Assembly (NCBI RefSeq): GCF_015624505.1
Contig: NZ_CP061379.1
Coordinates: forward strand, 4,588,001 to 4,652,000
Source: Bradyrhizobium commune
GTDB lineage: Bacteria; Pseudomonadota; Alphaproteobacteria; Rhizobiales; Xanthobacteraceae
Reading direction: 5' to 3'
DNA: 64,000 bases
This document shows, one piece after another, positions 33,961 to 53,099 of the stretch. The notes under the pieces are model-generated. The model was not told where the DNA came from and did not search any database. It saw nothing but the letters and a program-made list of their open reading frames with translations. The position numbers were made by a program, and so were the translations under genes. Positions within the stretch are counted from its first letter, which is position 1. Every line of letters starts with the position of its first letter.

Positions 33961-34085
33961 TTCAAGTCCCCGGAATTGCATTCGCTTCTCGCCAACGCAT
34001 TGCAGCAGGCTTCGCTCCCCCGCCTCGTGCAATGCAGCATTCCTCTGGTGCAACCGTCGCCGAATTGCGCTATTTTGAGACAACG

Positions 34086-37080: not shown

Positions 37081-37854
37081 CTAGCGCTCGGCAAACGCCT
37101 TTTCGACCACGAACTGGGCCGGCTCGCCGTGATTGCCCTCGACGAAGCCGCGCTCGCCCAGCAGCACGCGGGTGTCCGCCACCAGCGCCGGGCTGCCGCA
37201 GATCATGACGCGGTCATGGGCCGCTTCGAGCGCTGGCAGGCCGATGTCGGCGAACAGCTTGCCTGAGGTGATGAGGTCGGTGATGCGGCCGCGGTTGCGG
37301 AAGGGATCGCGCGTCACGGTCGGGTAGTAGATTAGCTGGTTCTGGATGTACTCGCCGAGCATCTCGTCCTTCGGCAGGTGCTCGGTGATCATCTCGCCAT
37401 AGGCGAGCTCCTTGACGTGCCGGCAGCCATGCAGCAGCACGACCTTCTCGAACCGCTCATAGGTCTCGGGATCCTTGATCACGCTCAGGAACGGCGCCAG
37501 CCCCGTGCCGGTGCCGATCAGATAGAGATTGCGACCGTCCTCCAGATTGTCGATCACCAGTGTGCCGGTGGCCTTGCGGCTGACGATGATCTCGTCGCCT
37601 TCCTTCAGATGCTGGAGGCGCGAGGTGAGCGGGCCGTCCGGCACCTTGATCGAGAAGAACTCGAGGGTGTCCTCGTAATTGGCGCTGGCAACGCTGTAGG
37701 CCCGCAGCAGCGGCTTCTCTCCCACCTTGAGCCCGATCATGGTGAATTCGCCGTTGCGGAAGCGGAAGGTCGGGCTGCGGGTGGTCTTGAAGGAAAACAG
37801 CGTATCGGTCCAATGGTGGACGCTCAAAACGCTTTCCTGATTGAAATTGCTCAT
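37081..37854 (-). CDS. fpr: Ferredoxin--NADP(+) reductase (bacterial Fpr type)
   Basis: 257 residues. The FAD-binding RAYSVAS (about 51-57), NADP site GTGTGLAPFLS (about 113-123), VMICGSPALV and the C-terminal VEKAFAER are diagnostic of bacterial FPR. It passes electrons between NADPH and ferredoxin/flavodoxin in the cytoplasm. It is divergent from the enamidase gene with the NicR-like palindromes in between. I infer it may supply reduced ferredoxin to the 6-hydroxynicotinate reductase-like enzyme; a general housekeeping role is equally possible. Confidence 0.95.
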   Translation of the reverse strand: MSNFNQESVLSVHHWTDTLFSFKTTRSPTFRFRNGEFTMIGLKVGEKPLLRAYSVASANYEDTLEFFSIKVPDGPLTSRLQHLKEGDEIIVSRKATGTLVIDNLEDGRNLYLIGTGTGLAPFLSVIKDPETYERFEKVVLLHGCRHVKELAYGEMITEHLPKDEMLGEYIQNQLIYYPTVTRDPFRNRGRITDLITSGKLFADIGLPALEAAHDRVMICGSPALVADTRVLLGERGFVEGNHGEPAQFVVEKAFAER

Positions 37855-37905
37855 CTCACCCTTCCCTGTCGCTTGCTTGCGGTTCCGAGGCGGTCAGCTA
37901 TGCAT

Positions 37906-37935
37906 CATTAGTACACGATCATTCGTATACTAATG
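37906..37935. promoter_or_regulatory. Candidate NicR-type operator pair before enamidase and fpr
   Basis: CATTAGTA and TACTAATG form 8-bp arms around 14 bases. Within this, ATTCGTATACTAAT (37921-37934) is a near-palindrome and ATTAGTACACGATC (37908-37921) is a degenerate second copy. The ATCATTCGTATAC core recurs at 47463-47474 before the reductase and dehydrogenase genes. Confidence 0.6.
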
Positions 37936-38011
37936 AATAATCCGGCTTGATCCCGCGGTCAAGGCTGCCCAAGATCGACAGCGTTGCAGTTAAGGACAAG
38001 GACCCCCTTCC

Positions 38012-39208
38012 ATGGCGCATGACGCACCCCAGGCCACCGGACCCTCGAAGCTCGTGATCCGCAATATCGGCCTGATCCTGTCGGGCGCGCTGGAAAAGCC
38101 GATCCTGGACGGCGACACCATCGTCGCCGAGAATGGCAAGATCACCGCGATCGGCCGTTTCAAGGATCTCGACACCGAAGGCGCGACCACCATCGTCGAT
38201 GCCAACGGCACCACGGTCACCCCCGGCCTGATCGACAGCCACGTCCACCCCGTCGCCGGCGACTGGACGCCGCGCCAGAACCAGATCAACTGGATCGACA
38301 GCTCCCTCCATGGCGGCATTACCACCATGATCTCGGCCGGCGAAGTGCACATGCCCGGCCGCCCCCGCGACGTCGTGGGTCTGAAGGCGATGGCAATCTT
38401 CGCGCAGCGCGCGTTCTGGACATTGCGTCCGGGTGGCGTGAAGGTTCACGCCGGCGCGCCGGTGATCGAATGCGAGATGGTCGAGGAGGACTTCAAGGAG
38501 CTGGCTGCGGCCGGCGTCAAGCTGCTCGGCGAGGTCGGCTTGGGCGGCGTCAAGGACGGACCGACCGCGCGCAAGATGGTGGGCTGGGCGCGCAAATACG
38601 GCATCCAGAGCACGATCCACACCGGCGGTCCCTCGATCCCCGGCTCCGGCCTGATCGACAAGGACGTGGTGCTGGAGGCCGACACCGACGTGGTCGGCCA
38701 CATCAATGGTGGCCACACGGCGCTGCCCGACGACCAGATCCGCTGCATCTGCGAGGGCTGCAAGCGCGGGCTCGAGATCGTCCATAACGGCAATGAGCGC
38801 TCGGCGCTCTACACCCTGCGCATCGCGCGCGAAATGGGCGACCTGCACCGCGTCATCCTGGGCACCGACGGGCCGGCCGGCTCCGGCGTGCAGCCGCTTG
38901 GCATTTTGCGCATGGTCTCGATGCTGTCCTCGCTCGGCGAGTTGCCGGCCGAGATCGCATTTTGTCTGGCCACCGGCAACACCGCGCGGATGCGCGCGCT
39001 CGATTGCGGCCTGATCGAGGTTGGCCGCGCCGCCGATTTCGTTCTCATGGACAAGGCGCAGCACTCGCCCGGCAAGAACATCCTGGACAGCGTCCAGCTC
39101 GGCGACCTCCCCGGCATCGGCATGACCATCATCGACGGCATCGTGCGCACCCAGCGCAGCCGGAATACGCCACCGGCCGGCAAGGTGCCGGAGGTGGTGG
39201 CGAAGTAG
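38012..39208 (+). CDS. ena: Enamidase-like amidohydrolase (nicotinate catabolism)
   Basis: 398 residues of amidohydrolase fold: GLIDSHVHP (first His pair), the lysine-bearing strand near GVKLLGEVGLGG, STIHTGG, DVVGHINGGHTALPD and VILGTDGPAGSG (final Asp). The overall pattern matches enamidase, which hydrolyses 1,4,5,6-tetrahydro-6-oxonicotinate to 2-formylglutarate and ammonia. The reductase that would make its substrate is encoded 7 kb downstream in the same region, supporting the call. The promoter region carries the shared ATTCGTATAC palindrome. Confidence 0.8.
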   Translation: MAHDAPQATGPSKLVIRNIGLILSGALEKPILDGDTIVAENGKITAIGRFKDLDTEGATTIVDANGTTVTPGLIDSHVHPVAGDWTPRQNQINWIDSSLHGGITTMISAGEVHMPGRPRDVVGLKAMAIFAQRAFWTLRPGGVKVHAGAPVIECEMVEEDFKELAAAGVKLLGEVGLGGVKDGPTARKMVGWARKYGIQSTIHTGGPSIPGSGLIDKDVVLEADTDVVGHINGGHTALPDDQIRCICEGCKRGLEIVHNGNERSALYTLRIAREMGDLHRVILGTDGPAGSGVQPLGILRMVSMLSSLGELPAEIAFCLATGNTARMRALDCGLIEVGRAADFVLMDKAQHSPGKNILDSVQLGDLPGIGMTIIDGIVRTQRSRNTPPAGKVPEVVAK

Positions 39209-39226
39209 GCGCGGGAAAACGGTGCC

Positions 39227-39313
39227 GTAGGGTGGGCAAAGCGAAGCGCGCCCACCGTTGCTCCCTGACGAAAGATGGTGGGCGCGGCGCAAACGCGCCT
39301 TTGCCCACCCCAC
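39227..39313. repeat. Intergenic inverted repeat (GGTGGGC-type palindromic element)
   Basis: Left arm GTAGGGTGGGCAAAGCG (39227 on, ending GCGCCCACC) and right arm GGTGGGCGCG (39277 on, ending CTTTGCCCACCCCAC) can fold into a long stem. This is the style of palindromic repeat scattered between genes in Bradyrhizobium. It lies between two convergent genes and may act as a two-way terminator. Confidence 0.75.
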
Positions 39314-39317
39314 GAGA

Positions 39318-39773
39318 TCACCTCAGCTTATTGAGAAGCCCCATCAGCGTCTCGCGCTCTTTCGCATCAAGCGGCGCGAGAGTCTCCCGCGTAATCGCGA
39401 GTGCATTTGATGCGAGCTTTTCCGCAAGCTGCTGCCCGGCGCGCGTCAGGCTCACCAGCAGGCGCCGGCCATCCTCCGGATCCTGGCTGGTCTCGGTCAG
39501 GCCGCGCGCCGTCAGGCGGTCGATCACGCCCTTGATGGTCGCGACATCCATCGCCGTCAGCCGCCCAAGCTGGTTCTGCGAGCATGCCCCCGTCTCGGCG
39601 AGCTTCGACAGAGCCGCCCATTGCGTCGGCGTCAGATTGGTGCCGATGTCGCGTGAGAAGATCGCGCTGTGACGCTGCCAGACCTGGCGCAGGATGAAGC
39701 CGACCTGCTCGTCGAGCACGTATGGCGGTTTCGCCGGTTTGACACCCTTCTTCGCCGTGACGCTTCTCGCCAT
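39318..39773 (-). CDS. MarR-family regulator, candidate NicR-like repressor
   Basis: 151 residues: helix-turn-helix LGRLTAMDVATIKGVIDRLTARGLTETSQDPEDGRRLLVSLTRAGQQ with the DGRR wing. It is the last gene of the Liv transporter operon inside the presumed nicotinate region. Nicotinate genes in other Proteobacteria are controlled by MarR proteins (NicR, BpsR), so this is the natural candidate to bind the ATTCGTATAC palindromes at 37.9 and 47.5 kb. The ligand would be 6-hydroxynicotinate or a later intermediate, by analogy only. Confidence 0.88.
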   Translation of the reverse strand: MARSVTAKKGVKPAKPPYVLDEQVGFILRQVWQRHSAIFSRDIGTNLTPTQWAALSKLAETGACSQNQLGRLTAMDVATIKGVIDRLTARGLTETSQDPEDGRRLLVSLTRAGQQLAEKLASNALAITRETLAPLDAKERETLMGLLNKLR

Positions 39774-39798
39774 CCGCTCGCAGCCCTTCCCTTTGCCC

Positions 39799-40503
39799 TC
39801 ACAAGGACAGATGCGCGTCGCGGATATCCGGACGCGCGTCGAGCTCGGCCATGGTGCCGCCGAAGCAGATGCGGCCGCGCTCGATGATGTAGGCGCGATC
39901 GGAGATCAACCGCGCGAAGTGCAGATTCTGCTCGGAAACGACGATGCTCACGCCCTCCTTCTTCATGGTCAGGATGGCATCGACCATCTGCTCCACGATT
40001 TTGGGCGACAGGCCTTCGGAGGGTTCGTCCAGCAGCACCAGCGACGGATTGCCCATCAGCGTGCGCGCGATCGTGAGCATCTGCTGCTCGCCGCCGCTCA
40101 TGCGCCCGCCCGGGCGGTTCTTCATCTCGCCCAAGTTCGGAAACAGCGTGAACAGCTTCTCGCGGGTCCAGTACGGCGCATTCGGCCGCTTCGGCTGACG
40201 GCCGACTTCGAGATTCTCCTCCACCGTCAGATCGGTGAAGATGCGCCGCTCTTCCGGCACATAGCCAAGCCCCTCGCGCACGATCTCGTGCGTCGGCTTG
40301 GCCGAGACGTCATTGCCCTCGAACATGATGCGGCCGGAGCGCTGCGCCACGAGGCCGACGATCGAGCGGAAGGTCGTCGACTTGCCGGCGCCGTTGCGAC
40401 CGAGCAGCGCCACCACCTCGCCCTCGCCGACCTCGAAACCGATGTCGAACAGGATATGCGCCGGGCCGTAATGGCTGTTGAGGTCCTGCACCGTGAGCTT
40501 CAT
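39799..40503 (-). CDS. livF: Branched-chain-type ABC importer ATPase LivF
   Basis: 234 residues: Walker A GRNGAGKST (about 36-44), signature MSGGEQQ, Walker B LVLLDEPSEG, switch His in VSEQN-type loop. Second ATPase of a Liv/HAAT transporter. ATG overlaps the LivG stop by four bases. Context points to uptake of a pyridine or aromatic carboxylate rather than an amino acid. Confidence 0.93.
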   Translation of the reverse strand: MKLTVQDLNSHYGPAHILFDIGFEVGEGEVVALLGRNGAGKSTTFRSIVGLVAQRSGRIMFEGNDVSAKPTHEIVREGLGYVPEERRIFTDLTVEENLEVGRQPKRPNAPYWTREKLFTLFPNLGEMKNRPGGRMSGGEQQMLTIARTLMGNPSLVLLDEPSEGLSPKIVEQMVDAILTMKKEGVSIVVSEQNLHFARLISDRAYIIERGRICFGGTMAELDARPDIRDAHLSL

Positions 40504-41291
40504 GCCGAGGCCCCCTGGCGATGCCCGCCCTCGTAAAGCAGGCCCTCGCCGAGATAGATCGCCTGCACCTGCGGATTGCCGCGCACCTCGGCCGGCGAGC
40601 CTTCGGCGATCAGCGTGCCGCGGTTGAGCACGATGATGCGGTCGGCGTGCTCGAACACCACATCCATGTCGTGCTCGGTGAAGAGCACACCGATCGACTT
40701 TTCCCGCGCGATTCGCGCGGTGAGCCGCATCAGCTCGACGCGCTCGCGCGGCGCCATGCCGGCGGTCGGCTCGTCCATCAGCAGGAGCTTTGGCTCGTTG
40801 GCGAGCGCCACTGCAAGCTCAAGCCGCTTGAGATCGCCATAGGCGAGCTCGCCGCAGGGGCGATCCGCATAGCCTCCCATGCCGACGAGCTCGAGCAGCC
40901 GGCCAGCCTCGCCGCGATCGAAATTCGGCGCTGAGCCCCAGAGATTGAACAACTGCTTTTCATGCGAGATCAAAGCGACCTGCACGTTCTCGCGCACGGT
41001 CATGGTTGCGAACGTCGCGGTGATCTGGAAGGTGCGACCGACGCCCAGCCGCCAGATCTCGCGCGGCTTCTTGCCGGTGGTTTCTTCGCCAAGCAGGCGG
41101 ACGTGGCCGGTATCAGGCTTGTTCTGGCCGTTGAGCATGTCGAAACAGGTGCTCTTGCCTGCGCCGTTCGGTCCAATCAGCGCCAAAATCTCACCGGCGC
41201 GTAGCGAGAACGAGACGCCGCGCACGGCATGGATGCCGCCATAGGATTTGGTCAGGCCTTCGACCGCGAGAAGTGGGGGTGCGACGCTCAT
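40500..41291 (-). CDS. livG: Branched-chain-type ABC importer ATPase LivG
   Basis: 263 residues: Walker A GPNGAGKST (about 39-47), signature region ELAYGDLKRLELA, Walker B LLLMDEPTAGMAP, switch TEHDMDVVF. The ELAYGD signature and long insert before it are LivG-typical. Overlaps both the permease and LivF genes by four bases, so the transporter genes are translationally coupled. Confidence 0.93.
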   Translation of the reverse strand: MSVAPPLLAVEGLTKSYGGIHAVRGVSFSLRAGEILALIGPNGAGKSTCFDMLNGQNKPDTGHVRLLGEETTGKKPREIWRLGVGRTFQITATFATMTVRENVQVALISHEKQLFNLWGSAPNFDRGEAGRLLELVGMGGYADRPCGELAYGDLKRLELAVALANEPKLLLMDEPTAGMAPRERVELMRLTARIAREKSIGVLFTEHDMDVVFEHADRIIVLNRGTLIAEGSPAEVRGNPQVQAIYLGEGLLYEGGHRQGASA

Positions 41292-43177
41292 TCGGCGGAC
41301 TCGATCGGCTTGGCCAACAGAGATGATCCCGGCGGCGAGGACTTCCTGCGGCGCTGCGCCAGTAGCTCCAGCATGCCGACGATGCCCTTGGGGAAGACGA
41401 CGACGATCAGCACGATGAAGCCGCCGAGCACGAGCTTTGACAGATCGGTCTGGCTGACAAGCCAGATGTTCAAAGCCTTGTAGACGATCGCACCGATCAC
41501 CGCGCCCGACACAGTCTCGACGCCGCCGAGCAGCACCATGACCAGCGCATCGACCGAGAGCGAGATGCCGAGATTGTCCGGGAAGACGCTGCCCTTAAGG
41601 TAGGCAAACAGCGCGCCGCCAATGCCGGCGGCCGTTCCCGCGATCACGAAGGCCGTCCACTGAATGCGCTTGGCGTTGATGCCGACCGCCTCACTGCGGA
41701 GAAGCGAATCCCTCGTGGCACGCAGCGCGTAGCCGAACGGCGAGAACACCGCGATCCGCAAGGCGATCGTCACCAGCGCCGCGACGCCCAGCGCCAGCCA
41801 GTAGAAATGCGAGGGGCTCGCCGCCCACTTCTCGGGCCAGACGCCCAGAATGCCGTTGTCACCGCCGGTCACGCTCACCCACTGGAACGCGATCGACCAC
41901 ACGATCTGCGCGAAGGCGAGCGTCAGCATCGCGAAATAGACGCCGGAAAGCTGCACCGCGAAGAAGCCGAACACGGCCGCACCCATGCAGCCAAGCAGCG
42001 GCCCGAGCAGCAGGCAGACGATCATCGGCAGCCCCGCCATCTTGGCGAGGAAGGCGATGCCATAGGCGCCGAGCCCGAAATAGGCGGCATGGCCGAACGA
42101 CGCGAGGCCGCCGACCGACATCAGGAAATGCAAGGAGACGGCGAAGATCACGAAGATCGCGATCTCCGAGCCGACGGTCAGCGCATAATTGCCGGCGAAC
42201 AGCGGCAGCGTTGCCGCGAGGACGAGCGCCGCCAGCGCGGCCAGCCGCTCGTTCGACGTCAACGGTCGCCACGGATTGACGGTGAGACCCGGCGTCTTGC
42301 GCGCCGGCGCCTCGGCCTTGCCGAACAGGCCCCAAGGCCGGACGATCAGCACCACCGCCATCACCAGGAAGACCAGAATGATCGAGATTTTTGGAAAGAT
42401 CAGGATGCCGAAGGCGTTGAGCTCGGACACCAGCACGGCTGCAACGAACGCGCCGACGATGCTGCCCAGCCCACCGATCACGACCACGACGAACACGTCA
42501 ACGATGATCCGCAGATCCATGGCATGATGCACGGCATCGCGCGGGATCTGCAGCGCACCGCCGAGGGCTGCGAGGAAGACGCCGACGGCGAACACGCTCG
42601 TGAACAGCCATTTCTGGTTGACGCCGAGCGCTGCGACCATGTCGCGGTCCTGGGTCGCCGCGCGCACCAGCACGCCCCAGCGCGTGCGCTGGAACAAGAG
42701 CCAGAGAATGCCGAGCACGACCGGGCTGAGCACGATCAGGAACAAATCGTAGCTCGGGATGTTCTGGCCGAAGAAATCGATCGCGCCCTTGAAGCCCGGC
42801 GCGCGGCGGCCGACGAGATCGTCAGGCCCCCAGATCAGCACCACGAGATCCTCGACCATCAAGGTCAGGCCGAAAGTCGCGAGCAGCTGGAACAGTTCCG
42901 GCGCGTGGTAGATCCGCCGGAGCAGCACCATCTCGACCAGCACGCCGATCAGCGCCACCGCAATCGCCGCCAGCACGATCGCGCCCCAGAAGCCGAAGGC
43001 GCCCGCGAGGTGCTCCGTCAGCGTGAAGGCGATGTAGGCGCCGATCATGTAGAAGGCGCCGTGCGCGAAATTCACGATCCTAGTCACGCCGAAGATGATC
43101 GACAGGCCCGAGGCCACCAGGAACAGCGACGCTGCGCTGGCGAGACCGGTCAGAAACTGTACGACGTAAAAGGCCAT
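41288..43177 (-). CDS. livHM: Fused LivH-LivM permease of the ABC importer
   Basis: 629 residues, about 18 membrane helices. Residues about 1-290 are LivH-like (VQFLTGLASAASLFLVASGLSIIFGVTRIVNFAHGAFYMIGAYIAF). A charged linker (GKAEAPARKTPGLTVNPW) leads to the LivM half (MSVGGLASFGHAAYFGLGAYG, the EAA-like LLRSEAVGINAKRIQWTAF). Normally two genes, here one continuous frame with no stop or frameshift, so the heterodimer is covalently linked. Uptake of the cluster's substrate is the inferred role. Confidence 0.93.
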   Translation of the reverse strand: MAFYVVQFLTGLASAASLFLVASGLSIIFGVTRIVNFAHGAFYMIGAYIAFTLTEHLAGAFGFWGAIVLAAIAVALIGVLVEMVLLRRIYHAPELFQLLATFGLTLMVEDLVVLIWGPDDLVGRRAPGFKGAIDFFGQNIPSYDLFLIVLSPVVLGILWLLFQRTRWGVLVRAATQDRDMVAALGVNQKWLFTSVFAVGVFLAALGGALQIPRDAVHHAMDLRIIVDVFVVVVIGGLGSIVGAFVAAVLVSELNAFGILIFPKISIILVFLVMAVVLIVRPWGLFGKAEAPARKTPGLTVNPWRPLTSNERLAALAALVLAATLPLFAGNYALTVGSEIAIFVIFAVSLHFLMSVGGLASFGHAAYFGLGAYGIAFLAKMAGLPMIVCLLLGPLLGCMGAAVFGFFAVQLSGVYFAMLTLAFAQIVWSIAFQWVSVTGGDNGILGVWPEKWAASPSHFYWLALGVAALVTIALRIAVFSPFGYALRATRDSLLRSEAVGINAKRIQWTAFVIAGTAAGIGGALFAYLKGSVFPDNLGISLSVDALVMVLLGGVETVSGAVIGAIVYKALNIWLVSQTDLSKLVLGGFIVLIVVVFPKGIVGMLELLAQRRRKSSPPGSSLLAKPIESAE

Positions 43178-43204
43178 CGGCGGTCCGGGTTGGTGTTCAG
43201 ATCA

Positions 43205-43228
43205 CCTCTCCCCGCGAGCGGGGAGAGG
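43205..43228. terminator. Perfect hairpin between binding protein and permease genes
   Basis: CCTCTCCCCGC and GCGGGGAGAGG (11-bp perfect arms, 2-base spacer) lie in the 67-base gap. No U-tract follows. Such GC hairpins after a binding-protein gene often protect its mRNA and reduce read-through, giving more binding protein than permease. Confidence 0.55.
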
Positions 43229-43244
43229 GAGAGATAAAGAGAGA

Positions 43245-44447
43245 TCAATCCTTCGGGCGCATCTTCTCGACTTCGGCGTCGCTCGGCAGATAGTCCGAGC
43301 CCTTCTTGTAGGACGAATCTACCATCACGCCCTTGCCGTCCTTGAGCGCAGTCTTGCCGACATAGGCACCGAGCGTCGACTGGTGGTCGATCTTGCGGAA
43401 GGTGATCTCGCCGAGCGGCGAGCCGACCGACAGCCCTTCAGCCGCCGCGATCAGCTTCTCCGGATCGGTCGAGCCGGCTTTTGCGAGAATCGCAGCCGCC
43501 GACTTGATGGTCTGGTAGCCGACGATCGAGCCGAGACGCGGATAATCGTTGTACTTGGCCTGATAGGCCTTCAGGAACGCGTCGTGCTCGGGAGTCTTGA
43601 TCGAGTACCAGGGATAGCCGGTGACGATCCACCCCTCCGGCGTCTCCTCCTTGAGCGGATCGAGATATTCAGGCTCGCCGGTCAGAAACGACACGACCTC
43701 ACGCCCCTTGAACAGGCCGCGGGTGTTGCCTTCGCGCACGAGCTTGACGAGGTCGGCGCCGAAGGTGACGTTGAGGATCGCCTCGGGATTGGCTGCGGCA
43801 ACGGCCTGTACCACCGGACCGGCGTCGATCTTGCCCTGCGGCGGCCACTGCTCGTCGACCCACTGGATGTCGGGACGCTTCTCCGACATCAGCTTCTTGA
43901 ACACGGCAACCGCCGACTGGCCGTATTCGTAGTTCGGCGCGATCGTCGCCCAGCGCTTTGCCGGCAGCTTGGCCGCGGCCTCGACCAGCATCGCGGCCTG
44001 CATGTAGTTGGAGGGGCGCAGGCGGAAGGTGTACTTGTTGCCCTTCGACCAGGTGACGGCGTCCGTCAGCGGCTCGGCCGCGAGGAAAAACACCTTCTTC
44101 TGGTTGGCGAAGTCAGAGACCGCAAGACCGATGTTCGACAGGAACGTGCCCGTCAGCATCGCGACGCCCTCGCTGGAAACGAGCTCGTTGGCCGCGGTCT
44201 GCGCATCCGCCGGCTTGCCGCCGTCGTCCTTGGAAATCACAACGAGCTTCTTGCCGTTGATGCCACCCGCCGCATTGATCTCTTCAACCGCGAGCTGCCA
44301 GCCCTTGCGATAGGGCTCGGTGAAGGCCGGCAGCAGCGAGTAGCTGTTGATCTCGCCGATCTTGATCTCCTGCGCCATGGCCGAATGGGCCATGCCGCCC
44401 GCCAGAAGCGCGAACGCCGCGCCGACGAAGTAATTTCTTGCTCGCAT
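43245..44447 (-). CDS. Liv-type ABC transporter substrate-binding protein
   Basis: 400 residues: signal peptide (MRARNYFVGAAFALLAGGMAHSAMAQE), then the type I periplasmic-binding fold of the LivK/aromatic-acid group (IKIGEINSYSLLPAFTEPYRKGWQLAVEEINAAGGINGKKLVVISKDDGGKPADA). GGAGGT precedes the ATG. Upstream partner of the fused permease and ATPases. Binding-pocket residues do not match the leucine-specific prototype closely; I infer an aromatic/heteroaromatic acid ligand from the neighbours. Confidence 0.9.
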   Translation of the reverse strand: MRARNYFVGAAFALLAGGMAHSAMAQEIKIGEINSYSLLPAFTEPYRKGWQLAVEEINAAGGINGKKLVVISKDDGGKPADAQTAANELVSSEGVAMLTGTFLSNIGLAVSDFANQKKVFFLAAEPLTDAVTWSKGNKYTFRLRPSNYMQAAMLVEAAAKLPAKRWATIAPNYEYGQSAVAVFKKLMSEKRPDIQWVDEQWPPQGKIDAGPVVQAVAAANPEAILNVTFGADLVKLVREGNTRGLFKGREVVSFLTGEPEYLDPLKEETPEGWIVTGYPWYSIKTPEHDAFLKAYQAKYNDYPRLGSIVGYQTIKSAAAILAKAGSTDPEKLIAAAEGLSVGSPLGEITFRKIDHQSTLGAYVGKTALKDGKGVMVDSSYKKGSDYLPSDAEVEKMRPKD

Positions 44448-44480
44448 CCCAACCTCCAGTTTTGAACTCTGTAGCGTCTT

Positions 44481-45065
44481 CTATTTCAAACCGTCTTCGC
44501 CCTTGATCTCAGCGACCGTCAAACCGCCGACGCGCGGCAACGGACGGCCGCTGTCGGTGACGGCGACCGCGACCATGATCTCGTTGGCGCGCGGCGCGTC
44601 GTTGATCTGCACCTCCATGCCGTCGAAATGACTGCGCACGAAGGCCGCATCCTTGTGGCCAAGCGGAATGTCCAGCGTGGTGCCGGGACCGCTGCGCTTC
44701 TTCGACGACGGAATCAGCGCCGCGCCCTTGCTCAGAACTTTACGCACCGGCGCGCCCATCTTCGGGTGAAGGATCGCGGCGGCGTGTTCCAGCTCGCCGT
44801 TCTCGCCGACGGCCGCGGCCTTGCCATAGCTCTGCGCCTTCGCGCCGTCGATGCCGAGCGCCGCCACCGCGCGCTTCGACAGCAGCTCGCCGAGCTCCTC
44901 GCCGATCGCGATCAGCGGCGAAAGGTCCTCGACATATTTTCCGGCAAAGGGATTTTCGATCACGGCGATCGCCGCCGCGCGCCGGGTCGGGGGCGAGACC
45001 TGGCGGCCCATCTCCATCTGCGTCTCTTCGACCACGGTGACGATCTTGCGGATGATCGCGCTCAT
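44481..45065 (-). CDS. Amino-acid-synthesis family protein (PF06684), unknown role
   Basis: 194 residues: IIRKIVTVVEETQMEMGRQVSPPTRRAAAIAVIENPFAG at the start, then EELGELLSKRAVAALG and GKAAAVGENGELEHAAAILHPKMGAPVRK are marks of this family. The biochemical activity is unknown. It lies between UPF0280 and the binding protein gene in the presumed nicotinate operon, where it may process 2-formylglutarate or assist the reductase; that is only a suggestion from position. Confidence 0.85.
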   Translation of the reverse strand: MSAIIRKIVTVVEETQMEMGRQVSPPTRRAAAIAVIENPFAGKYVEDLSPLIAIGEELGELLSKRAVAALGIDGAKAQSYGKAAAVGENGELEHAAAILHPKMGAPVRKVLSKGAALIPSSKKRSGPGTTLDIPLGHKDAAFVRSHFDGMEVQINDAPRANEIMVAVAVTDSGRPLPRVGGLTVAEIKGEDGLK

Positions 45066-45080
45066 GTTTCGCTTCCCCGA

Positions 45081-45980
45081 TCAGGCATGAACCGCATTCT
45101 CCAGCACCGCCGGGTGCGGTCGTTGCCGTTCAATATCTTTGGTTCCGATGACAAGCATATCACCACACAGCTGCAACACGGCACCCTCGATCAAGCCGCG
45201 GTCGAACAATTGCCGTGCACATTCCGCGCCAGATTCCAGCGCGAGAGCGATCTCGCTCTGCGACAACTCACCGACGTCGCGCGTGACGAGACGCGCGCCG
45301 AGATCGCTGTCGGGTTGAAGCGCGTTCGCGGGCTCCCGAATGATCGCTTGATGCCCGGGCAGATCGACGGCGTTGGCGATGATTGTCGCCGCCGCGTCGG
45401 CCTGCGATGCGGTTACCGCCAGCGCCGTCACAGCATCTGCGATGCCGAGCGAAAAGCTGCGGCCGTGTCGTCCGCTGGTCGCGATCCCCCGCACGGGGTC
45501 ATTCGCGTCAATCTTCATGGCCCGCATCACGCCGCTGCCATCGGGGCGATCGATCAAGCCGACCGAAAAAAGCTCACCCTCGCCAAGATGAAGCGCAATA
45601 TCGCCGCCATTGTTCACATAAGCCTGATCAAGCGATGCCGCAGCCAGCATTGCACCCAGAATTTCCTCCGCCACGCTGCCGGCCACCGCGGCCATCGGCG
45701 TGATGAAGCAATCGGCGGCATAGGGCGCGACGGCGGCATGCATCCGGCGCGCAACAACACCGTTGAGCAAACAGTTTCCTGGTTCCACCGCCTTGCGCAA
45801 TTCCACCAGCTCGGCGCAAAGCTCGTCGAGCAGGCCGGTGAAACGCCGCGCGGCTGCCTCGTAGGCTGCGCGCACCTCGCTCGCGTCTCCCCTCGCCTCA
45901 ACGATCAGATCAATCGGTCCATCCTGCAAATGCAGCCGCCGGCCATCAGACAGCAACGCGATTTGCGGGAGCCGCGTCAT
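45081..45980 (-). CDS. UPF0280 protein (ApbE-superfamily-like)
   Basis: 299 residues from ATG 45980, which overlaps the reductase stop (ATGA). The frame extends much further upstream, but that part is a shadow of the reductase gene. Motifs: ITPMAAVAGSVAEEILGAM, AYVNNGGDIALHL, GIATSGRHGRSFSLGIADAVTALA. These resemble the ApbE flavin-transferase fold to which UPF0280 (COG2122) is related. Position next to a flavin/Fe-S-type reductase invites the idea that it attaches or inserts a flavin cofactor, which is inference. Confidence 0.82.
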   Translation of the reverse strand: MTRLPQIALLSDGRRLHLQDGPIDLIVEARGDASEVRAAYEAAARRFTGLLDELCAELVELRKAVEPGNCLLNGVVARRMHAAVAPYAADCFITPMAAVAGSVAEEILGAMLAAASLDQAYVNNGGDIALHLGEGELFSVGLIDRPDGSGVMRAMKIDANDPVRGIATSGRHGRSFSLGIADAVTALAVTASQADAAATIIANAVDLPGHQAIIREPANALQPDSDLGARLVTRDVGELSQSEIALALESGAECARQLFDRGLIEGAVLQLCGDMLVIGTKDIERQRPHPAVLENAVHA

Positions 45981-47434
45981 GTCCGCCGTCCCGGAATCGG
46001 GTTCTGCCAGGGCACCTGGCGGACATCGTCGCCGCCCCTCACCTCGGACAGCGGCTTCACATAATCCATGTGGCCGCCGAGAGCGGCATAGTCGGACAGC
46101 TTCATCGTGAACTCGATCGGCGCGACCAGCGCCGGCGTCGGCACATAGCCGAATGCGCCGGCCGGCATCTGCGTCACGTCGACCATGTAAGTGATGCCGC
46201 CGCCCGGCCAGACATAGACCGCCGCGCCACCGCTGGTGACGCGTGTCAACGCATCCTTCACCGAGCGCGTCAGCCGCACCGGGTTGTCGGTCACACCCGC
46301 GCGCAGCGAGCCGCCGGCACCCGCCATGAACAGCACCGTGCACAGCGCCGGCTCGCAATTCTCCTGGATGCGCTCGACTGAGAACTTCAGATCGGCCGGC
46401 ATCTCGGTCTCGATCGGCTTCAAGGCCTCGTCGAGCACGTAGTAGGACGAATGCTCGCCGGTGGTGGACACCATCAGCATGGAAAGGCCCGGCTTGGCCT
46501 CCTTGGCGTCGAACGGCCCGAGGATCGCGAGCGGATCGGAGATGTTGGTCCCGCCCCATCCCGTGCCGGGATCGGCGACCTGGAAATAACGGCCGGGGGT
46601 CGAGCGGCGGCCCTTCATCTTGATGCCGGTATCGGCAATGTCGAGCAGCTTGCCGGCCTGATGCTCACTGAGCACGCCGGTGATGTGATCGTCGACCACG
46701 ACGACCTCGTCGACCCTGCCGTGCCATTGCTTGGCGAACATGCCGATCGTCGCCGAGCCACAGCCGACGCGCATGCGCTCTTCTTTTGCGCCGTTGACGA
46801 TCGGCGGCTGGCCGGCCTGCACCACCACATTCGCACCGCCGTCGATGGTCAGCTCCACCGCCTTGCAATTGGCAAGGTCCATCAGCGTGTCGCAGGTGAC
46901 GCGACCCTGCTTCTTGGAGCCGCCGGTCAGATGATGCACGCCGCCGAGCGACAGCATTTGCGAGCCGTATTCGCTGGTGGTGACGTGACCGACCGCCTCG
47001 CCCTGTGCGCGCACGGTTGCGGTCTCCGGGCCGAGATAGCGGTCGGTGTCGATCTTCACCTTGATGCCGCAATAGGAGAAGATGCCTTCGGTGACGACGG
47101 TCACCATGTCGACGCCGTCGACTTCCGACGAGACGATGAACGGCGCCGGCTTGTAGTCGGGATAGGTCGTGCCCGCGCCGATCGCGGTCACGAAGGTCGA
47201 GGGCTCGTGGACGAGCTTGCCGTCCCAGTCTTCGGTGCGACTGAACGGCACCAGCTTGCCGCCCTGCGACACCGTGCGCTCGAGGATGATGTGCGGATCG
47301 ACGCGAACGAGCTTGCCCTCGTGATTGGCATAGCGGTCGCAGGCGCCCGCCGCGCCCGGCTTGATGTAGCACATCACCGGACAGGCATCGCAGCGGATCT
47401 TGTCGGTGGCGGCGCTCGTCGTTTCAGTCACCAT
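45977..47434 (-). CDS. hnr: 6-hydroxynicotinate reductase-like Fe-S protein
   Basis: 485 residues. The N-terminus carries a cysteine set C15-x2-C18-x3-C22-x9-C32 (RCDACPVMCYIKPGAAGACDRY) suited to an iron-sulfur cluster. The rest (GKLVRVDPHIILERTVSQGG, DGVDMVTVVTEGIFSYCGIKVKIDTDRYLG, RMRVGCGSATIGMF) matches what I know of 6-hydroxynicotinate reductase, which reduces 6-hydroxynicotinate to 1,4,5,6-tetrahydro-6-oxonicotinate with ferredoxin. First gene of the UPF0280/AA-synth/Liv operon and divergent from nicAB-like genes; enamidase is close by. Start at ATG 47434 lacks a strong ribosome binding site. Confidence 0.72.
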   Translation of the reverse strand: MVTETTSAATDKIRCDACPVMCYIKPGAAGACDRYANHEGKLVRVDPHIILERTVSQGGKLVPFSRTEDWDGKLVHEPSTFVTAIGAGTTYPDYKPAPFIVSSEVDGVDMVTVVTEGIFSYCGIKVKIDTDRYLGPETATVRAQGEAVGHVTTSEYGSQMLSLGGVHHLTGGSKKQGRVTCDTLMDLANCKAVELTIDGGANVVVQAGQPPIVNGAKEERMRVGCGSATIGMFAKQWHGRVDEVVVVDDHITGVLSEHQAGKLLDIADTGIKMKGRRSTPGRYFQVADPGTGWGGTNISDPLAILGPFDAKEAKPGLSMLMVSTTGEHSSYYVLDEALKPIETEMPADLKFSVERIQENCEPALCTVLFMAGAGGSLRAGVTDNPVRLTRSVKDALTRVTSGGAAVYVWPGGGITYMVDVTQMPAGAFGYVPTPALVAPIEFTMKLSDYAALGGHMDYVKPLSEVRGGDDVRQVPWQNPIPGRRT

Positions 47435-47464
47435 GTGCAAACCAGTGGATCACGACGCGTTATC

Positions 47465-47478
47465 ATTCGTATACGAAC
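47465..47478. promoter_or_regulatory. Candidate NicR-type operator before the reductase operon
   Basis: ATTCGTATACGAAC contains the perfect 12-bp palindrome TTCGTATACGAA (47466-47477), 31 bases upstream of the reductase ATG. ATCATTCGTATAC (47463 on) is shared with the site at 37919-37930. Confidence 0.65.
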
Positions 47479-47615
47479 GATGTTGCGCGCGGTCCCGAGT
47501 GCTGTCAAGCGGCGCCACCCGCGAAAAGACACTGCTGCCGAATAAAACCTCATTTGCCTCCCGGCTTTGTTCACAAAGCAGGCAGTTGCGCTGCACTGCG
47601 GCATGCCGGCTTGCA

Positions 47616-47631
47616 CGTTTGTGTACAAACG
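47616..47631. promoter_or_regulatory. Palindrome CGTTTGTGTACAAACG before nicA-like gene
   Basis: Seven-bp arms (CGTTTGT/ACAAACG) around GT, 74 bases before the nicA-like ATG. Different from the ATTCGTATAC sites and only half-similar to the TTTGTAC TetR sites, so it may bind a further regulator. Confidence 0.45.
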
Positions 47632-47639
47632 GTATCGTC

Positions 47640-47669
47640 GCGACTTGGAATTTGAGCGACTTGGAATTT
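47640..47669 (+). repeat. Direct repeat of 14 bp in the nicA-like leader
   Basis: GCGACTTGGAATTT at 47640-47653 and 47656-47669, two bases apart, between the palindrome and the nicA-like start. May be tandem regulator half-sites or a duplication. Confidence 0.6.
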
Positions 47670-47704
47670 TTGCGACCGCATGGTCGCGGTGCTGGGAAAC
47701 AGGG

Positions 47705-48187
47705 ATGACGCAGACACCGATCCGCCTCACCGTGAACGGCAGCATCCACGACGTCACGGCAGAGCGCCGGACGCCGCTGCTCTATGTGCTGCGCAACGAC
47801 CTCGCCCTCAACGGCCCGAAATATGGTTGCGGCCTCGGCGAATGCGGCACCTGCACTGTCCTGATCGACGGTGCCCCCGCGCGCTCTTGCGTGATTCCGG
47901 TAGGCGGTTGCACCGGACGCGACATCGTGACGCTCGAAGGTCTCGGCACGCGCGACGAGCCTGATGTGGTGCAGCAGGCCTTCATCGACGAACAGGCCGC
48001 GCAATGCGGCTATTGCCTCAACGGCATGATCATGACCACCAAGGCGCTGCTCGCGATCAACCCGCGGCCCACCGAGCAGGAAGCGCTCGCCGCGCTGCGC
48101 TACAATCTCTGCCGTTGCGGCACGCATGTCGAAATCCTCCGCGCCGTGATGCGCGCCTCTAGCCAGCTCGCAGAGGCCGGTGATTGA
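47705..48187 (+). CDS. nicA: [2Fe-2S] subunit of a nicotinate/isoquinoline-type dehydrogenase
   Basis: 160 residues with both clusters: plant-type C42, C47, C50, C62 (YGCGLGECGTCTVLIDGAPARSC) and the C-terminal C101, C104, C136, C138 (CGYCLNGMIM...NLCRCG). It passes electrons from the molybdenum centre to the hemes of its partner. ATG 47705 is the family-consistent start; the frame opens upstream at 47567 without support. The stop overlaps the start of the large subunit by one base. NicA of P. putida is the nearest named type. Confidence 0.88.
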   Translation: MTQTPIRLTVNGSIHDVTAERRTPLLYVLRNDLALNGPKYGCGLGECGTCTVLIDGAPARSCVIPVGGCTGRDIVTLEGLGTRDEPDVVQQAFIDEQAAQCGYCLNGMIMTTKALLAINPRPTEQEALAALRYNLCRCGTHVEILRAVMRASSQLAEAGD

Positions 48188-51100
48188 TGGCCTCCCCCAT
48201 TCGCGGTTCGCTCGTCGTCGTCCGCACCGTGGACGAGGTCACGTCCGAGACCTTCGTGCGGATCACCGCGGATGGTTCGGTCACCGCCTATAACGGTCAT
48301 GTCGATCTCGGCACGGGCATCCGTACTGCGCTCGGCCAGATCGTCGCCGAGGAGCTGGACGTCTCCTTTGCGCGCGTCGTCGTCGTGCTCGGCGACACCG
48401 CCGTCGTGCCGAACCAGGGCGCGACGATCGCGAGCGAAACCATCCAGGTCACCGCCGTTCCCCTGCGCAAGGCCGCGGCGCAAGCGCGGCACTTTCTGGT
48501 CGCGCGCGCGGCCGAGCGGCTGGAGCTGCCGGCAAGTGAGCTCAAGATCGAGGACGGCCTCGTCCGCGGCCACAATCGCAGCGTCAGCTATGGTGAGCTG
48601 ATCGGCGGCGACACCATCCGCCTCGAGCTTGATGACGACGTGCCGGTCAAGGCCGTCGGCGACTATGCCATCGTCGGCCAGTCGATGCCGCGCGTCGATC
48701 TTCCTGCCAAGGCCACGGGCGAGCTGACCTTCGTGCACGACATCCGCGTATCAGGCATGCTGCATGGGCGCGTGGTGCGCCCGCCCTATGCCGGCGTCGA
48801 TGCCGGACCGTTCGTCGGCACCAGCCTGATCGCGGTCGACGAATCCTCGGTGCGCGACGTTCCCGGCCTCGTTGCTGTCGTGCACATCGGCGACTTCGTC
48901 GGCGTCGTCGCCGAGCGCGAGGAAAATGCGATTCGCGCCGCGGAGCAGCTCAAGGTGAACTGGAAGCCGACGCCTGCGCTGACCGATCTCGCCGATGTCG
49001 AGACCGCGTTGCGCGCCAGTCCGTCGACACCGCGCACGCTGATCGACAAGGGCGGTGTCGACGCGGCGATTGCCGGTGCGGCCAAGCCGATGCAGCGCAC
49101 TTATGTGTGGCCGTATCAGATGCACGCGTCGATCGGACCGTCCTGTGCCGTCGCCGACTTCCTGGACGGCAACATCCGCGTCTGGTCCGGCACGCAAAAT
49201 CCGCACCTGCTGCGTGCCGACCTCGCACTCCTGATCGAGCGTCCCGAGAGCGAGATCGATGTGATCCGGCTCGAGGCGGCCGGCTGCTACGGCCGCAACT
49301 GCGCCGACGATGTCAGCGCCGACGCGCTGCTGCTGTCGCGCGCGGTCGGCCGCCCCGTGCGCGTGCAGCTGACGCGCGAGCAGGAGCACGCCTGGGAGCC
49401 CAAGGGCACCGCGCAGCTGGTTGACGTCAATGGCGGCCTCGACGCCGACGGTGGCATCGCCGGCTACGATCTCGCTACGCGCTATCCCTCGAACGCGGCA
49501 CCGACACTCGCGCTCCTTCTCACCGGGCGGATTTCATCCGAGCCCGAGGTGCTCCAGATGGGCGACCGCACCGCGATCCCGCCTTACGATTACGACCACA
49601 TGCGTGTCGTCGCCCATGACATGGCGCCGATCGTGCGCGCATCCTGGTTGCGCGGCGTCTCGGCGCTGCCGAACACGTTTGCGCATGAATCCTATATCGA
49701 CGAGGCCGCAACCGAGGCTGGCGTCGATCCGATCGAATATCGGTTGCGCTACCTCAAGGACCGGCGCGCCGTCGATCTCGTCAACGCTGTCGCCGAGCGC
49801 GCGGGCTGGACGCCCAGGCCAGTCCGCGAGGACAAGGACGGCGAGATCGTGCACGGGCGCGGCTTTGCCTATGCGCTCTACGTCCACAGCAAGTTTCCCG
49901 GCTATGGCGCGGCGTGGTCGGCCTGGGTTGCCGACGTCGCCGTCAACAAGACCACCGGCGACGTCAGCGTCACGCGCGTGGTTGCGGGGCAGGATTCCGG
50001 GTTGATGATCAATCCGGACGGCGTCCGCCACCAGATCCACGGCAACGTCATCCAGTCCACCAGCCGCGCGCTGATGGAGGAGGTCTCGTTCGATCGTGGT
50101 GCGGTGGCTGCGCGCGAATGGGGCGCCTATCCGATCATCCCCTTCCCCGACGTGCCCAAGATCGACGTGCTGATGCTGCCGCGGCCGGACCAGCCGCCGC
50201 TCGGCGTCGGCGAGTCTGCTTCGGTGCCGAGCGCGGCCGCGATCGCGAACGCGATCTTCGACGCGACAGGTGTGCGCTTCCGCGAGCCGCCGTTCACGCC
50301 GGAACGTATCCTCAGGGGATTGCACGGTGACGCGTCGGCCACGACGCTGGCCCTGCCGGCACCCGCGACACCACCTCCGTCCCGCATTTGGCAAAATCCA
50401 TTCGCCAGGCGCGCCGGCATCTTTGCAACGATGGCAGCCCTATGCACCGCCGCGATCGGCGTCGGCGCCGCGCTGCTGCCCGGCCGCGCCATCGCGCCGA
50501 TCGCGCGTCCCGATGCATCGGTCTATTCGTCAGCGACGATCGCGCGCGGCCAACAGCTCGCAGCGCTCGGCAATTGCGCGGAGTGCCACACCAGCCTCGG
50601 TGGCGTGCTCAATGCCGGCGGCCGCGCACTGGAGACGCCGTTCGGCACCATCTATTCGACCAACATCACGCCGGATGTCGAGACCGGCATCGGCGCCTGG
50701 TCCTATCCCGCCTTCGCGCGCGCGATGCGCGACGGGCTACACCGCGACGGCCGCCAGCTCTATCCCGCCTTCCCGTACACGCACTTTGCCAGGACCAGCG
50801 AAGCCGACATGCAAGCGCTCTACGCCTATCTGATGGCGCAGCCTGCGGTACGCGCGACGGCGCCCGCCAACACGCTCGCCTTCCCGTTCAATCTCCGCCC
50901 GCTGCTTGCAGGCTGGAACGCGCTGTTCCATCAGGCCACGGAGTTCAAGCCCGATCCCGCAAAATCCGAGCAGTGGAATCGCGGCGCCTATCTCGTCGAG
51001 AGCCTCGGCCATTGCAGCGCCTGCCATTCGCCGCGCAATGCGCTCGGCGCCGAGCAGCGCGACGCCTATCTCGCCGGCGCCTTTGCCGAGGGCTGGGAGG

Positions 51101-51681
51101 CGCCGGCTCTGACCTCGCTCTCGCATGCGCCGGTCCCGTGGAGCGAAGACGAGCTGTTCGCCTATCTGCGCACCGGCCATTCGCGCTATCACGGTGTGGC
51201 GGCAGGTCCGATGGCGCCTGTTGTCAGGGACCTCAAGGCCCTGCCCGACCAGGACATCCGCGCGATGGCCGTCTATCTCGGCTCGTTCAACGACGCCGCC
51301 GATGCGCCCGCGCTTGCCACCAGGCTGGAGAGCGCGACGCAAGTCACCGTGGCCTCGTCCACCGGCGCGCGGCTCTATCAGGGCGCCTGCGCAGTCTGCC
51401 ACGAGGTCGGCGGCCTGCCGCTGTTCGGCAGCCGCCCCTCGCTCGCGCTCAGCAGTAATCTGCACAGCGCGACATCCGACAATCTCGTGCAGGTGATTCT
51501 GCACGGTATTGTCGAGCCTGTGTCGAGCGATCTCGGCTACATGCCCGCCTTCAGGAACAGCATGAGCGACGCGCAAATCGAGGAGCTCGTCAGCTTCCTG
51601 CGCAACCAGTTTGCGCCGGACAAGCCCGCATGGACCGGCGTGCGCGAGACGATCGCCCGCGTGCGCGCTTCAACGCATTAA
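48187..51681 (+). CDS. nicB: Molybdopterin subunit of nicotinate-type dehydrogenase fused to a tri-heme cytochrome c domain
   Basis: 1164 residues. Residues about 1-735 are the xanthine-dehydrogenase-family Mo-binding part, with the catalytic glutamate in GVGESAS (E676). A membrane helix (about 745-764) follows. Then come three c-type heme motifs: CAECH (797-801), CSACH (943-947), CAVCH (1068-1072). This is the NicB layout, in which hydroxylation electrons go to cytochrome c and the respiratory chain rather than NAD. ATG 48187 overlaps the nicA stop. Substrate nicotinate is inferred from reductase and enamidase nearby; isoquinoline or aldehyde oxidases share the fold. Confidence 0.85.
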   Translation: MASPIRGSLVVVRTVDEVTSETFVRITADGSVTAYNGHVDLGTGIRTALGQIVAEELDVSFARVVVVLGDTAVVPNQGATIASETIQVTAVPLRKAAAQARHFLVARAAERLELPASELKIEDGLVRGHNRSVSYGELIGGDTIRLELDDDVPVKAVGDYAIVGQSMPRVDLPAKATGELTFVHDIRVSGMLHGRVVRPPYAGVDAGPFVGTSLIAVDESSVRDVPGLVAVVHIGDFVGVVAEREENAIRAAEQLKVNWKPTPALTDLADVETALRASPSTPRTLIDKGGVDAAIAGAAKPMQRTYVWPYQMHASIGPSCAVADFLDGNIRVWSGTQNPHLLRADLALLIERPESEIDVIRLEAAGCYGRNCADDVSADALLLSRAVGRPVRVQLTREQEHAWEPKGTAQLVDVNGGLDADGGIAGYDLATRYPSNAAPTLALLLTGRISSEPEVLQMGDRTAIPPYDYDHMRVVAHDMAPIVRASWLRGVSALPNTFAHESYIDEAATEAGVDPIEYRLRYLKDRRAVDLVNAVAERAGWTPRPVREDKDGEIVHGRGFAYALYVHSKFPGYGAAWSAWVADVAVNKTTGDVSVTRVVAGQDSGLMINPDGVRHQIHGNVIQSTSRALMEEVSFDRGAVAAREWGAYPIIPFPDVPKIDVLMLPRPDQPPLGVGESASVPSAAAIANAIFDATGVRFREPPFTPERILRGLHGDASATTLALPAPATPPPSRIWQNPFARRAGIFATMAALCTAAIGVGAALLPGRAIAPIARPDASVYSSATIARGQQLAALGNCAECHTSLGGVLNAGGRALETPFGTIYSTNITPDVETGIGAWSYPAFARAMRDGLHRDGRQLYPAFPYTHFARTSEADMQALYAYLMAQPAVRATAPANTLAFPFNLRPLLAGWNALFHQATEFKPDPAKSEQWNRGAYLVESLGHCSACHSPRNALGAEQRDAYLAGAFAEGWEAPALTSLSHAPVPWSEDELFAYLRTGHSRYHGVAAGPMAPVVRDLKALPDQDIRAMAVYLGSFNDAADAPALATRLESATQVTVASSTGARLYQGACAVCHEVGGLPLFGSRPSLALSSNLHSATSDNLVQVILHGIVEPVSSDLGYMPAFRNSMSDAQIEELVSFLRNQFAPDKPAWTGVRETIARVRASTH

Positions 51682-51682
51682 A

Positions 51683-52651
51683 CTAGCCGTGCTTCTTCAC
51701 GTCCACCGGCGGCGTGCCGTGGGTGTGGAAGGACTCGATCGTCTTCAAACCCCAAGCCTGGCCCTTCTTGCGCTCTTCCTCGGTCCACACGATCGGCTTC
51801 CAGTCCGGCGCGAGGATCAGGCGGGCGCCGGCATTGGCGACCTCGACGCGGTTGCCGCCGGGCTCGTAGACATAGAGGAAGAAGGTCTGCTGGATCGCAT
51901 GCTTGTGCGGGCCGGTCTCGATGTGCACGCCGTTCTCGAGAAAAATGTCGGCGGCGCGCAGAATCTCCTCGCGGCTGTCGAGCGCGTAGGTGACGTGGTG
52001 GAAGCGGCCGGGCGTGCCGGAATGGTCGAGCGAATAGGCGAAGTCGTAGCTCTTGTTTGACATCGTCAGCCACATCGCGGCTTCACGGCCATCGTTGAGC
52101 ACGATCTGCTCGGTGAGCCGACAGCCGAGATAATTCTCGAAGAACTCGCGATTCGCCTTGATGTCGACGGCGAGGCAGTTGAGGTGATCGAGCCGGCGGA
52201 CATTGACGCCGCGCGCCGGAAAGCGCTGCGCCTGGTTCTTGAGTGCGGGTTTGAGCTCCGGTGGCGCCTGATACCACTCGGTCTCGTAATAGAGCTCGAC
52301 GATGTGGCCATCAGGGTCGCGGCAGCGGAAGGTCGGCCCCTGCCCCATGTCGCCGTCGATCCAGCCGATATCGAAGCCCGAGCCCTTCAGTGCGGCGACG
52401 CGGCGTTCCAGCCCCTGCTGGCTGCGCGCGCGCAGCGCCATGTGCTCCATGCCCGAGGTCTTCGACGCCGTCAGCTTGAGCGAATAGCGCTCGTAATCGT
52501 CCCAGCCGCGCAGGTAAACCGACTCACCCTTCTGCCCGCTGACGGTCATGCCCATGACGTCGACGAAGAATCTCAGGCTCTCGTCGGGCTTGGGCGTCAA
52601 CAGCTCCATGTGGCCGAGATGGGCGAGATCGAGGATCGGTTCGGGCTGCAT
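51683..52651 (-). CDS. Catechol 2,3-dioxygenase-like extradiol dioxygenase
   Basis: 322 residues, two vicinal-oxygen-chelate modules (about 8-125 and 150-275). The Fe(II) ligands are in the second: H156 (RLDHLNC), H219 (RFHHVTY), E270 (NRVEVAN), with spacing like XylE. It opens a catechol ring next to the hydroxyls in the cytoplasm. GGAGGA lies five bases before the ATG. Its promoter region, 116 bp upstream, is a near copy of the TetR promoter at 29.5 kb, which ties it to the PDC/oxalomesaconate-type operon rather than to the neighbouring nicotinate genes. Confidence 0.9.
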   Translation of the reverse strand: MQPEPILDLAHLGHMELLTPKPDESLRFFVDVMGMTVSGQKGESVYLRGWDDYERYSLKLTASKTSGMEHMALRARSQQGLERRVAALKGSGFDIGWIDGDMGQGPTFRCRDPDGHIVELYYETEWYQAPPELKPALKNQAQRFPARGVNVRRLDHLNCLAVDIKANREFFENYLGCRLTEQIVLNDGREAAMWLTMSNKSYDFAYSLDHSGTPGRFHHVTYALDSREEILRAADIFLENGVHIETGPHKHAIQQTFFLYVYEPGGNRVEVANAGARLILAPDWKPIVWTEEERKKGQAWGLKTIESFHTHGTPPVDVKKHG

Positions 52652-53002: not shown

Positions 53003-53099
53003 ATTTAACGAAGCTCCCGCCTCTGCCGCTTAACAGTTTGTGCAGCCCCGGCCCGCATAGTCGGAAACAAATCCCTCGCTCTTGCCAGGTTCATCCATC

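Follow-up and report, generated by a model that had tools for sequence, protein, structure and literature searches.

A probable respiratory-reductive nicotinate gene cluster in Bradyrhizobium commune and the UPF0280 protein adjoining its 6-hydroxynicotinate reductase homolog

Gene content of the locus and the proposed route

We analyzed a 64-kb stretch of Bradyrhizobium commune DNA (the window; positions 4588001-4652000 of a single-contig, 7.62-Mb genome), in which two divergent gene pairs very probably constitute a respiratory-reductive gene set for nicotinate catabolism with two divergent promoters. Open reading frame (ORF) listing, GC content at third codon positions (GC3), and profile scans defined a first pair at 37081-39208, fnr on the minus strand and ena on the plus strand, and a second pair at 39318-51681, in which an hnr-UPF0280-PF06684-livK-livHM-livG-livF-marR series on the minus strand, presumably one operon, lies opposite nicA-nicB on the plus strand. 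GC3 was of the coding type in every cluster gene measured. A sequence-only reading of this DNA had placed fnr, ena, marR, a Liv-type importer, hnr, nicA, and nicB where we found them, but its gene list omitted the PF06684 (44481-45065) and UPF0280 (45081-45980) genes between livK and hnr. The cluster, with molybdenum and ATP-binding cassette abbreviated as Mo and ABC, is as follows.

37081..37854, minus strand: fnr, ferredoxin-NADP+ reductase-like (NCBIfam PRK10926, 164.6 bits, E=2.3e-48, under the 390-bit cutoff; Pfam NAD_binding_1 and FAD_binding_6 domains)
38012..39208, plus strand: ena, enamidase (1,4,5,6-tetrahydro-6-oxonicotinate hydrolase; PDB 2vun, E=7.1e-110)
39318..39773, minus strand: MarR-family regulator (Pfam MarR, 44.3 bits)
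39799..40503, minus strand: LivF-type ABC ATPase (profile scans)
40500..41291, minus strand: LivG-type ABC ATPase (profile scans)
41288..43177, minus strand: fused LivH-LivM permease (two Pfam BPD_transp_2 stretches)
43245..44447, minus strand: LivK-type periplasmic binding protein (Peripla_BP_6, 235.2 bits)
44481..45065, minus strand: PF06684 (AA_synth, DUF1185) protein (Pfam, 251.9 bits, E=3.1e-75; PDB 2qtp, E=1.1e-87)
45081..45980, minus strand: UPF0280 protein, ApbE-type fold (NCBIfam NF003322, 420.5 bits, cutoff 290)
45977..47434, minus strand: hnr, 6-hydroxynicotinate reductase homolog, 485 amino acids (NCBI names of close homologs; eight near-invariant cysteines)
47705..48187, plus strand: nicA, [2Fe-2S] subunit of a Mo hydroxylase (Pfam Fer2_2, E=1.5e-25; eight cysteines)
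48184..51681, plus strand: nicB, Mo-cofactor subunit with three c-type heme motifs (MoCoBD_2, MoCoBD_1, and Cytochrome_CBB3)

Confirming the enzyme identity first proposed, the ena product is a full-length homolog of the solved enzyme 2vun: the match extended across residues 12-394, and the alignment took in the amidohydrolase motifs (HVH, HTGG, HINGG, and the D region). Hnr had no match among Pfam or NCBIfam models, and several of its Bradyrhizobium and Afipia homologs are named 6-hydroxynicotinate reductase by NCBI, with others named "hypothetical protein" (best 120 of 8000 scored). Eight candidate iron-sulfur (Fe-S) cysteines of Hnr (C15, C18, C22, C32, C122, C181, C225, and C360) were each present in at least 108 of 110 aligned rows, a set that includes repeated genomes (at least four shared between two samples). 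The N-terminal cluster among them, to which the sequence-only reading had drawn attention, was kept in 109 of the 110 homologs at C15, C18, C22, and C32, the other row having a gap there.

NicA and NicB together showed the makeup of a NicAB-type enzyme, with two [2Fe-2S] cysteine sets, a Mo-site GVGE, and three c-heme motifs. The previously proposed eight Fe-S cysteines of NicA (C88, C93, C96, C108, C147, C150, C182, and C184, numbered from 47567) were located among twelve cysteines in the mechanical ORF that begins at 47567, the ATG at 47705 being the likelier start. We likewise located the three proposed CXXCH motifs of NicB (798, 944, and 1069) and its GVGE at 674-677, the glutamate of which is E677 counted from the TTG at 48184 and E676, as originally numbered, counted from the next codon. 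None of 17 NCBIfam matches bore the name of Pseudomonas putida NicB. The top PDB match of NicB was 8gy3_A, an aldehyde dehydrogenase cytochrome subunit, and the large subunit of that enzyme (8gy3_C) matched as well.

These assignments suggest a route that would begin with nicotinate uptake by the Liv-type importer, which is complete (a binding protein, two fused permeases, and two ATPases) and whose LivK-type protein is probably the component that binds nicotinate or a related compound. From its domain makeup and the literature on relatives, NicAB would convert nicotinate to 6-hydroxynicotinate and pass the electrons through its three c-hemes to the respiratory chain; a hydrophobic stretch, recognized by reading of the sequence, separates the Mo and heme parts of NicB and suggests that the Mo part is cytosolic and the hemes periplasmic. 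The fnr product is likely the electron supply for Hnr, an Fe-S flavoprotein to which the ferredoxin-NADP reductase would deliver electrons, probably via ferredoxin, and which would reduce 6-hydroxynicotinate to 1,4,5,6-tetrahydro-6-oxonicotinate. The enamidase, by homology, would then open the ring to give 2-formylglutarate and ammonia.

Related systems are known. P. putida NicAB consists of a [2Fe-2S] subunit and a Mo subunit fused to a three-heme cytochrome domain, as in the window, but its product proceeds to 2,5-dihydroxypyridine, whereas the neighboring genes in the window are reductive instead. Work from 1992 reportedly described nicotinate as a respiratory electron donor via a membrane hydroxylase and a c-type cytochrome oxidase, with reduction, ring opening, decarboxylation, and glutarate as the later steps. 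Genes for the first three steps of Eubacterium barkeri are also said, in work from 2006, to occur in nine Proteobacteria. Nicotinate fermentation by E. barkeri shares the Hnr and enamidase steps with the window, but PMC5746545 and PMC10331938 describe its NdhFSLM nicotinate dehydrogenase as having a flavoprotein subunit and selenium at the Mo, unlike the heme-c NicAB here. According to PMC3511419, the cluster occurs in Azorhizobium caulinodans ORS571 (AZC_2804 to AZC_2790), Bradyrhizobium japonicum USDA110 (blr3818-blr3830), Rhodopseudomonas palustris HaA2, and strain SG-6C, for the last of which growth and resting-cell tests showed degradation of both nicotinate and 6-hydroxynicotinate. An A. 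caulinodans strain mutated in its gene for the catabolic nicotinate dehydrogenase was Nic- and 6-OH-Nic+ (PMC3357923). The window resembles these clusters, its hnr being up to 96% identical to those of named Bradyrhizobium loci and up to 97% identical to those of other genomes of the same genus. The combination of NicAB with a reductive Hnr/enamidase branch put forward in the sequence-only reading stands, but its novelty as a hybrid does not, since the cluster is already in PMC3511419. The route has been described and the window is a further example; what is new here is the UPF0280-Hnr link and a predicted nicotinamidase-containing regulon.

A UPF0280 protein next to hnr

UPF0280 begins with an ATG that shares bases with the stop codon of hnr (ATGA), and the association of the two genes extended beyond the window. 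We found hnr in 32 of 398 Pseudomonadota genomes sampled and UPF0280 in the same 32, with the best four (hnr) or six (UPF0280) first-look candidates scored per genome. Within the genus, 115 of 117 sampled genomes contained hnr, and in three of the 115 a match was split or additional. A search of genome contigs then provided the best 80 loci from at least 592 relatives, which are heavily Bradyrhizobium, so that the neighborhood counts are not a census. UPF0280 lay directly after hnr in 74 of the 77 loci with at least 1000 nucleotides of room, and the genomes of the remaining three (L080, L090, and L100) each had one strong UPF0280 match elsewhere. In the 51 full-flank loci, ena was present in 38, fnr in 29, livK in 34, and marR in 46.

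The fold of the UPF0280 protein is that of the ApbE flavin transferases, which were the structural match with a clear gap (family scans were run on the longer mechanical ORF, 45081-46559). S169 of its ATSG motif and D195 and T199 of its ADxxxT motif were invariant in 32 aligned sequences and aligned with ApbE, and the genome contained no match to a canonical ApbE. E. barkeri Hnr is said to carry a covalent flavin. The UPF0280 protein, an ApbE relative, shows no lipoprotein or export signal at its N terminus by reading rather than by a predictor, and its likeliest role, at about even odds, would be to install such a flavin on Hnr. A more specific proposal, in which NF003322-type UPF0280 proteins are a new cytosolic ApbE branch without the histidine loop that would serve a single enzyme, attaching flavin mononucleotide (FMN) to a noncanonical site of Hnr and being essential for its work, falls slightly short of an even chance. 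The first candidate for the attachment site is the near-invariant HLTGG[ST] stretch at Hnr residues 168-173. The part of PMC3511419 available gives no role to two unknown proteins of its clusters, which we take to be UPF0280 and PF06684.

Several observations weigh against this proposal. ApbE/Ftp proteins (PDB 4ig1, 6nxi, and 7esa; reviewed in PMC12052999) share the fold, the ATSG serine, and the ADxxxT motif with UPF0280. However, the UPF0280 protein scored under the Pfam ApbE (PF02424) cutoff (21.8 versus 25.6 bits) and showed a gap in the profile alignment where ApbE has the SHTxDPRxG loop bearing its catalytic histidine, with no HxxDPxxG in the protein. The canonical D-x-x-[ST]-G-A-[ST] target motif occurred in 0 of the 110 Hnr homologs, and the nearest motif, xHLTGG[ST], ended in a nonhydroxyl residue in 7 of them. 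In the genome of locus L080 (G398), the sole UPF0280 match lies away from hnr and contains one in-frame TAG, which slightly lowered our confidence in the new-branch proposal; barring a sequencing error at this codon, hnr may have been kept there with no functional UPF0280. The kinship of Hnr to the E. barkeri enzyme is taken from another strain, SG-6C, whose Hnr is 42% identical to it according to PMC3511419, and the limited number of candidates scored per genome leaves weak absences of hnr or UPF0280 unproven. Of two further genomes checked for in-frame stops in UPF0280, that of L079 had none and that of L089, with the gene adjacent to hnr, had one TAA. The UPF0280 matches L151 (G402) and L154 (G398) contained one in-frame stop each.

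The missing loop and missing target motif would also fit a UPF0280 protein that is a flavin carrier, a flavin adenine dinucleotide (FAD) pyrophosphatase, or an assembly chaperone for Hnr, with the flavin attached by Hnr itself or otherwise, and some ApbEs do hydrolyze FAD (PMC12052999). We rate this possibility as appreciable, if somewhat under an even chance, because the ATSG serine and the ADxxxT aspartate and threonine are invariant in all 32 proteins and, according to the same review, known cytosolic ApbEs flavinylate soluble reductases. That UPF0280 catalyzes a pathway step, acting for instance on tetrahydro-6-oxonicotinate or 2-formylglutarate, instead of serving a cofactor is improbable considering that enzymes are already assigned for the steps up to 2-formylglutarate, that ApbE is the structural match by a clear gap, and that UPF0280 is the next gene after hnr in 74 of 77 loci versus ena in the locus in 38 of 51, two counts made by different criteria.

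The PF06684 gene, the sole match to this family in the genome, adjoins UPF0280. Of the 32 genomes with hnr, all but G139 also had PF06684 (31), as did 28 further genomes among the 398; the family is thus not specific to hnr genomes. Two tandem PF06684 genes followed UPF0280 in 25 of the 36 loci with 2800 nucleotides of room (L078-L118), compared to one here. The solved relative 2qtp has a BCM-like fold (PMC2954203).

Operator palindromes and the substrate of the cluster

Both divergent promoters contain operator-like palindromes.

37922..37933: TTCGTATACTAA, an operator-like palindrome in the fnr-ena intergenic region
47466..47477: TTCGTATACGAA, a palindrome in the divergent promoter of hnr and nicA
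47618..47629: TTTGTGTACAAA, the second site of the hnr/nicA promoter region

The pattern TTNGTNTACNAA occurred at these three places in the window, all within the two divergent promoters, compared to an average of 0.02 matches in shuffled sequences. Across 78 related loci, the forward strand held 104 matches, of which 87 lay in the ena-fnr interval or no more than 420 nucleotides upstream of hnr; the site was found upstream of hnr in 42 of the 78 loci and between ena and fnr in 25 of 26. Among ten loci inspected for the pattern, the six from non-NicAB or distant groups were without any site, and the operator therefore looks clade specific. This clustering suggests that the MarR protein would repress both divergent promoters by binding the TTNGTNTACNAA palindromes.

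Three of the ten genomic TTNGTNTACNAA places are in the nicotinate cluster. Another is an exact copy of TTCGTATACGAA at genome position 180258, located 21 bases ahead of the earliest possible start codon of a nicotinamidase-family ORF (191.7 bits, cutoff 174). We thus predict a MarR regulon comprising the two divergent promoters and this distant gene. Arguing against such a regulon, the pattern was not enriched genome-wide (14 strand matches at 10 places versus 12 for the reversed control), and an exact site preceded the nicotinamidase homolog in only 4 of 30 loci, all among 10 of the same genus. In the other six of these ten genomes, the best 12-mer had 9 or 10 consensus positions in five and 7 in one; the 20 loci of other genera had no exact site. 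Since 163 of 3000 random 220-bp windows also scored at least 9 consensus positions, some by containing real sites, single degenerate sites are weak evidence.

A nicotinamidase-family gene preceded by the identical palindrome supports nicotinate as the substrate. The NicA and NicB domains are common to aldehyde and other Mo hydroxylases, as the 8gy3_A match illustrates, and 6-chloronicotinate enters the route in strain SG-6C (PMC3511419), so the cluster could conceivably degrade another N-heterocycle, such as a different hydroxypyridine carboxylate or a pyridine bearing a halogen or other substituent, with nicotinate as a side substrate. We judge this unlikely given the shared operator, the proximity of the best nicotinamidase homolog to hnr (no more than 20 kb apart in 12 of 32 genomes, 31 of which were compared, G322 having a weak homolog only), and the full-length homology of the enamidase to a characterized enzyme.

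Exchange of the Mo hydroxylase and flanking genes

The Mo hydroxylase beside hnr is swapped between loci, being either NicAB or an FAD-type enzyme that may act on the same substrate. NicB-type subunits were present in 33 of the 51 full-flank loci, and 13 of the 18 others had a xanthine dehydrogenase (XDH)-like large subunit just upstream of hnr. In the two of these 13 loci scanned for FAD-type makeup, L095 (6301-10017) and L118 (6238-9936), nicAB is replaced by genes for an FAD subunit and a fused Fe-S/Mo subunit that lie immediately upstream of hnr. In a quick tree built from 81 Hnr rows, labeled by a looser rule as NicAB (47), XDH (25), or none (9), the NicAB label required 7 changes, at least 3 of which were forced by strong branches; without the unlabeled rows, NicAB/XDH required 4 changes.

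Flanking genes scanned from approximately 28.8 to 59.9 kb, including those for a P450, a mechanosensitive channel, a catechol-dioxygenase-like protein, and a HerA-like protein, had no obvious tie to nicotinate. A catechol 2,3-dioxygenase family gene (51683-52651; TIGR03211, 368.8 bits) adjoins nicB and was also found in 15 of the 80 best relative loci, all close Bradyrhizobium. The window also contains a HerA-like (DUF87) ATPase gene at 53082-54839 and an ORF for a DUF763 protein (33903-35336; Pfam, 411.9 bits) that overlaps the adjacent ORF at 32815-34290.

The swap of a heme c- or FAD-type Mo hydroxylase beside the hnr-UPF0280 pair suggests how versions of one route with different electron outlets are assembled. 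Through the operator palindrome, genes for nicotinamidase, transport, hydroxylation, and reduction are linked in a single predicted regulon. Attachment of a covalent flavin to Hnr by UPF0280, if true, would assign a function to one of the cluster's two conserved unknown proteins.
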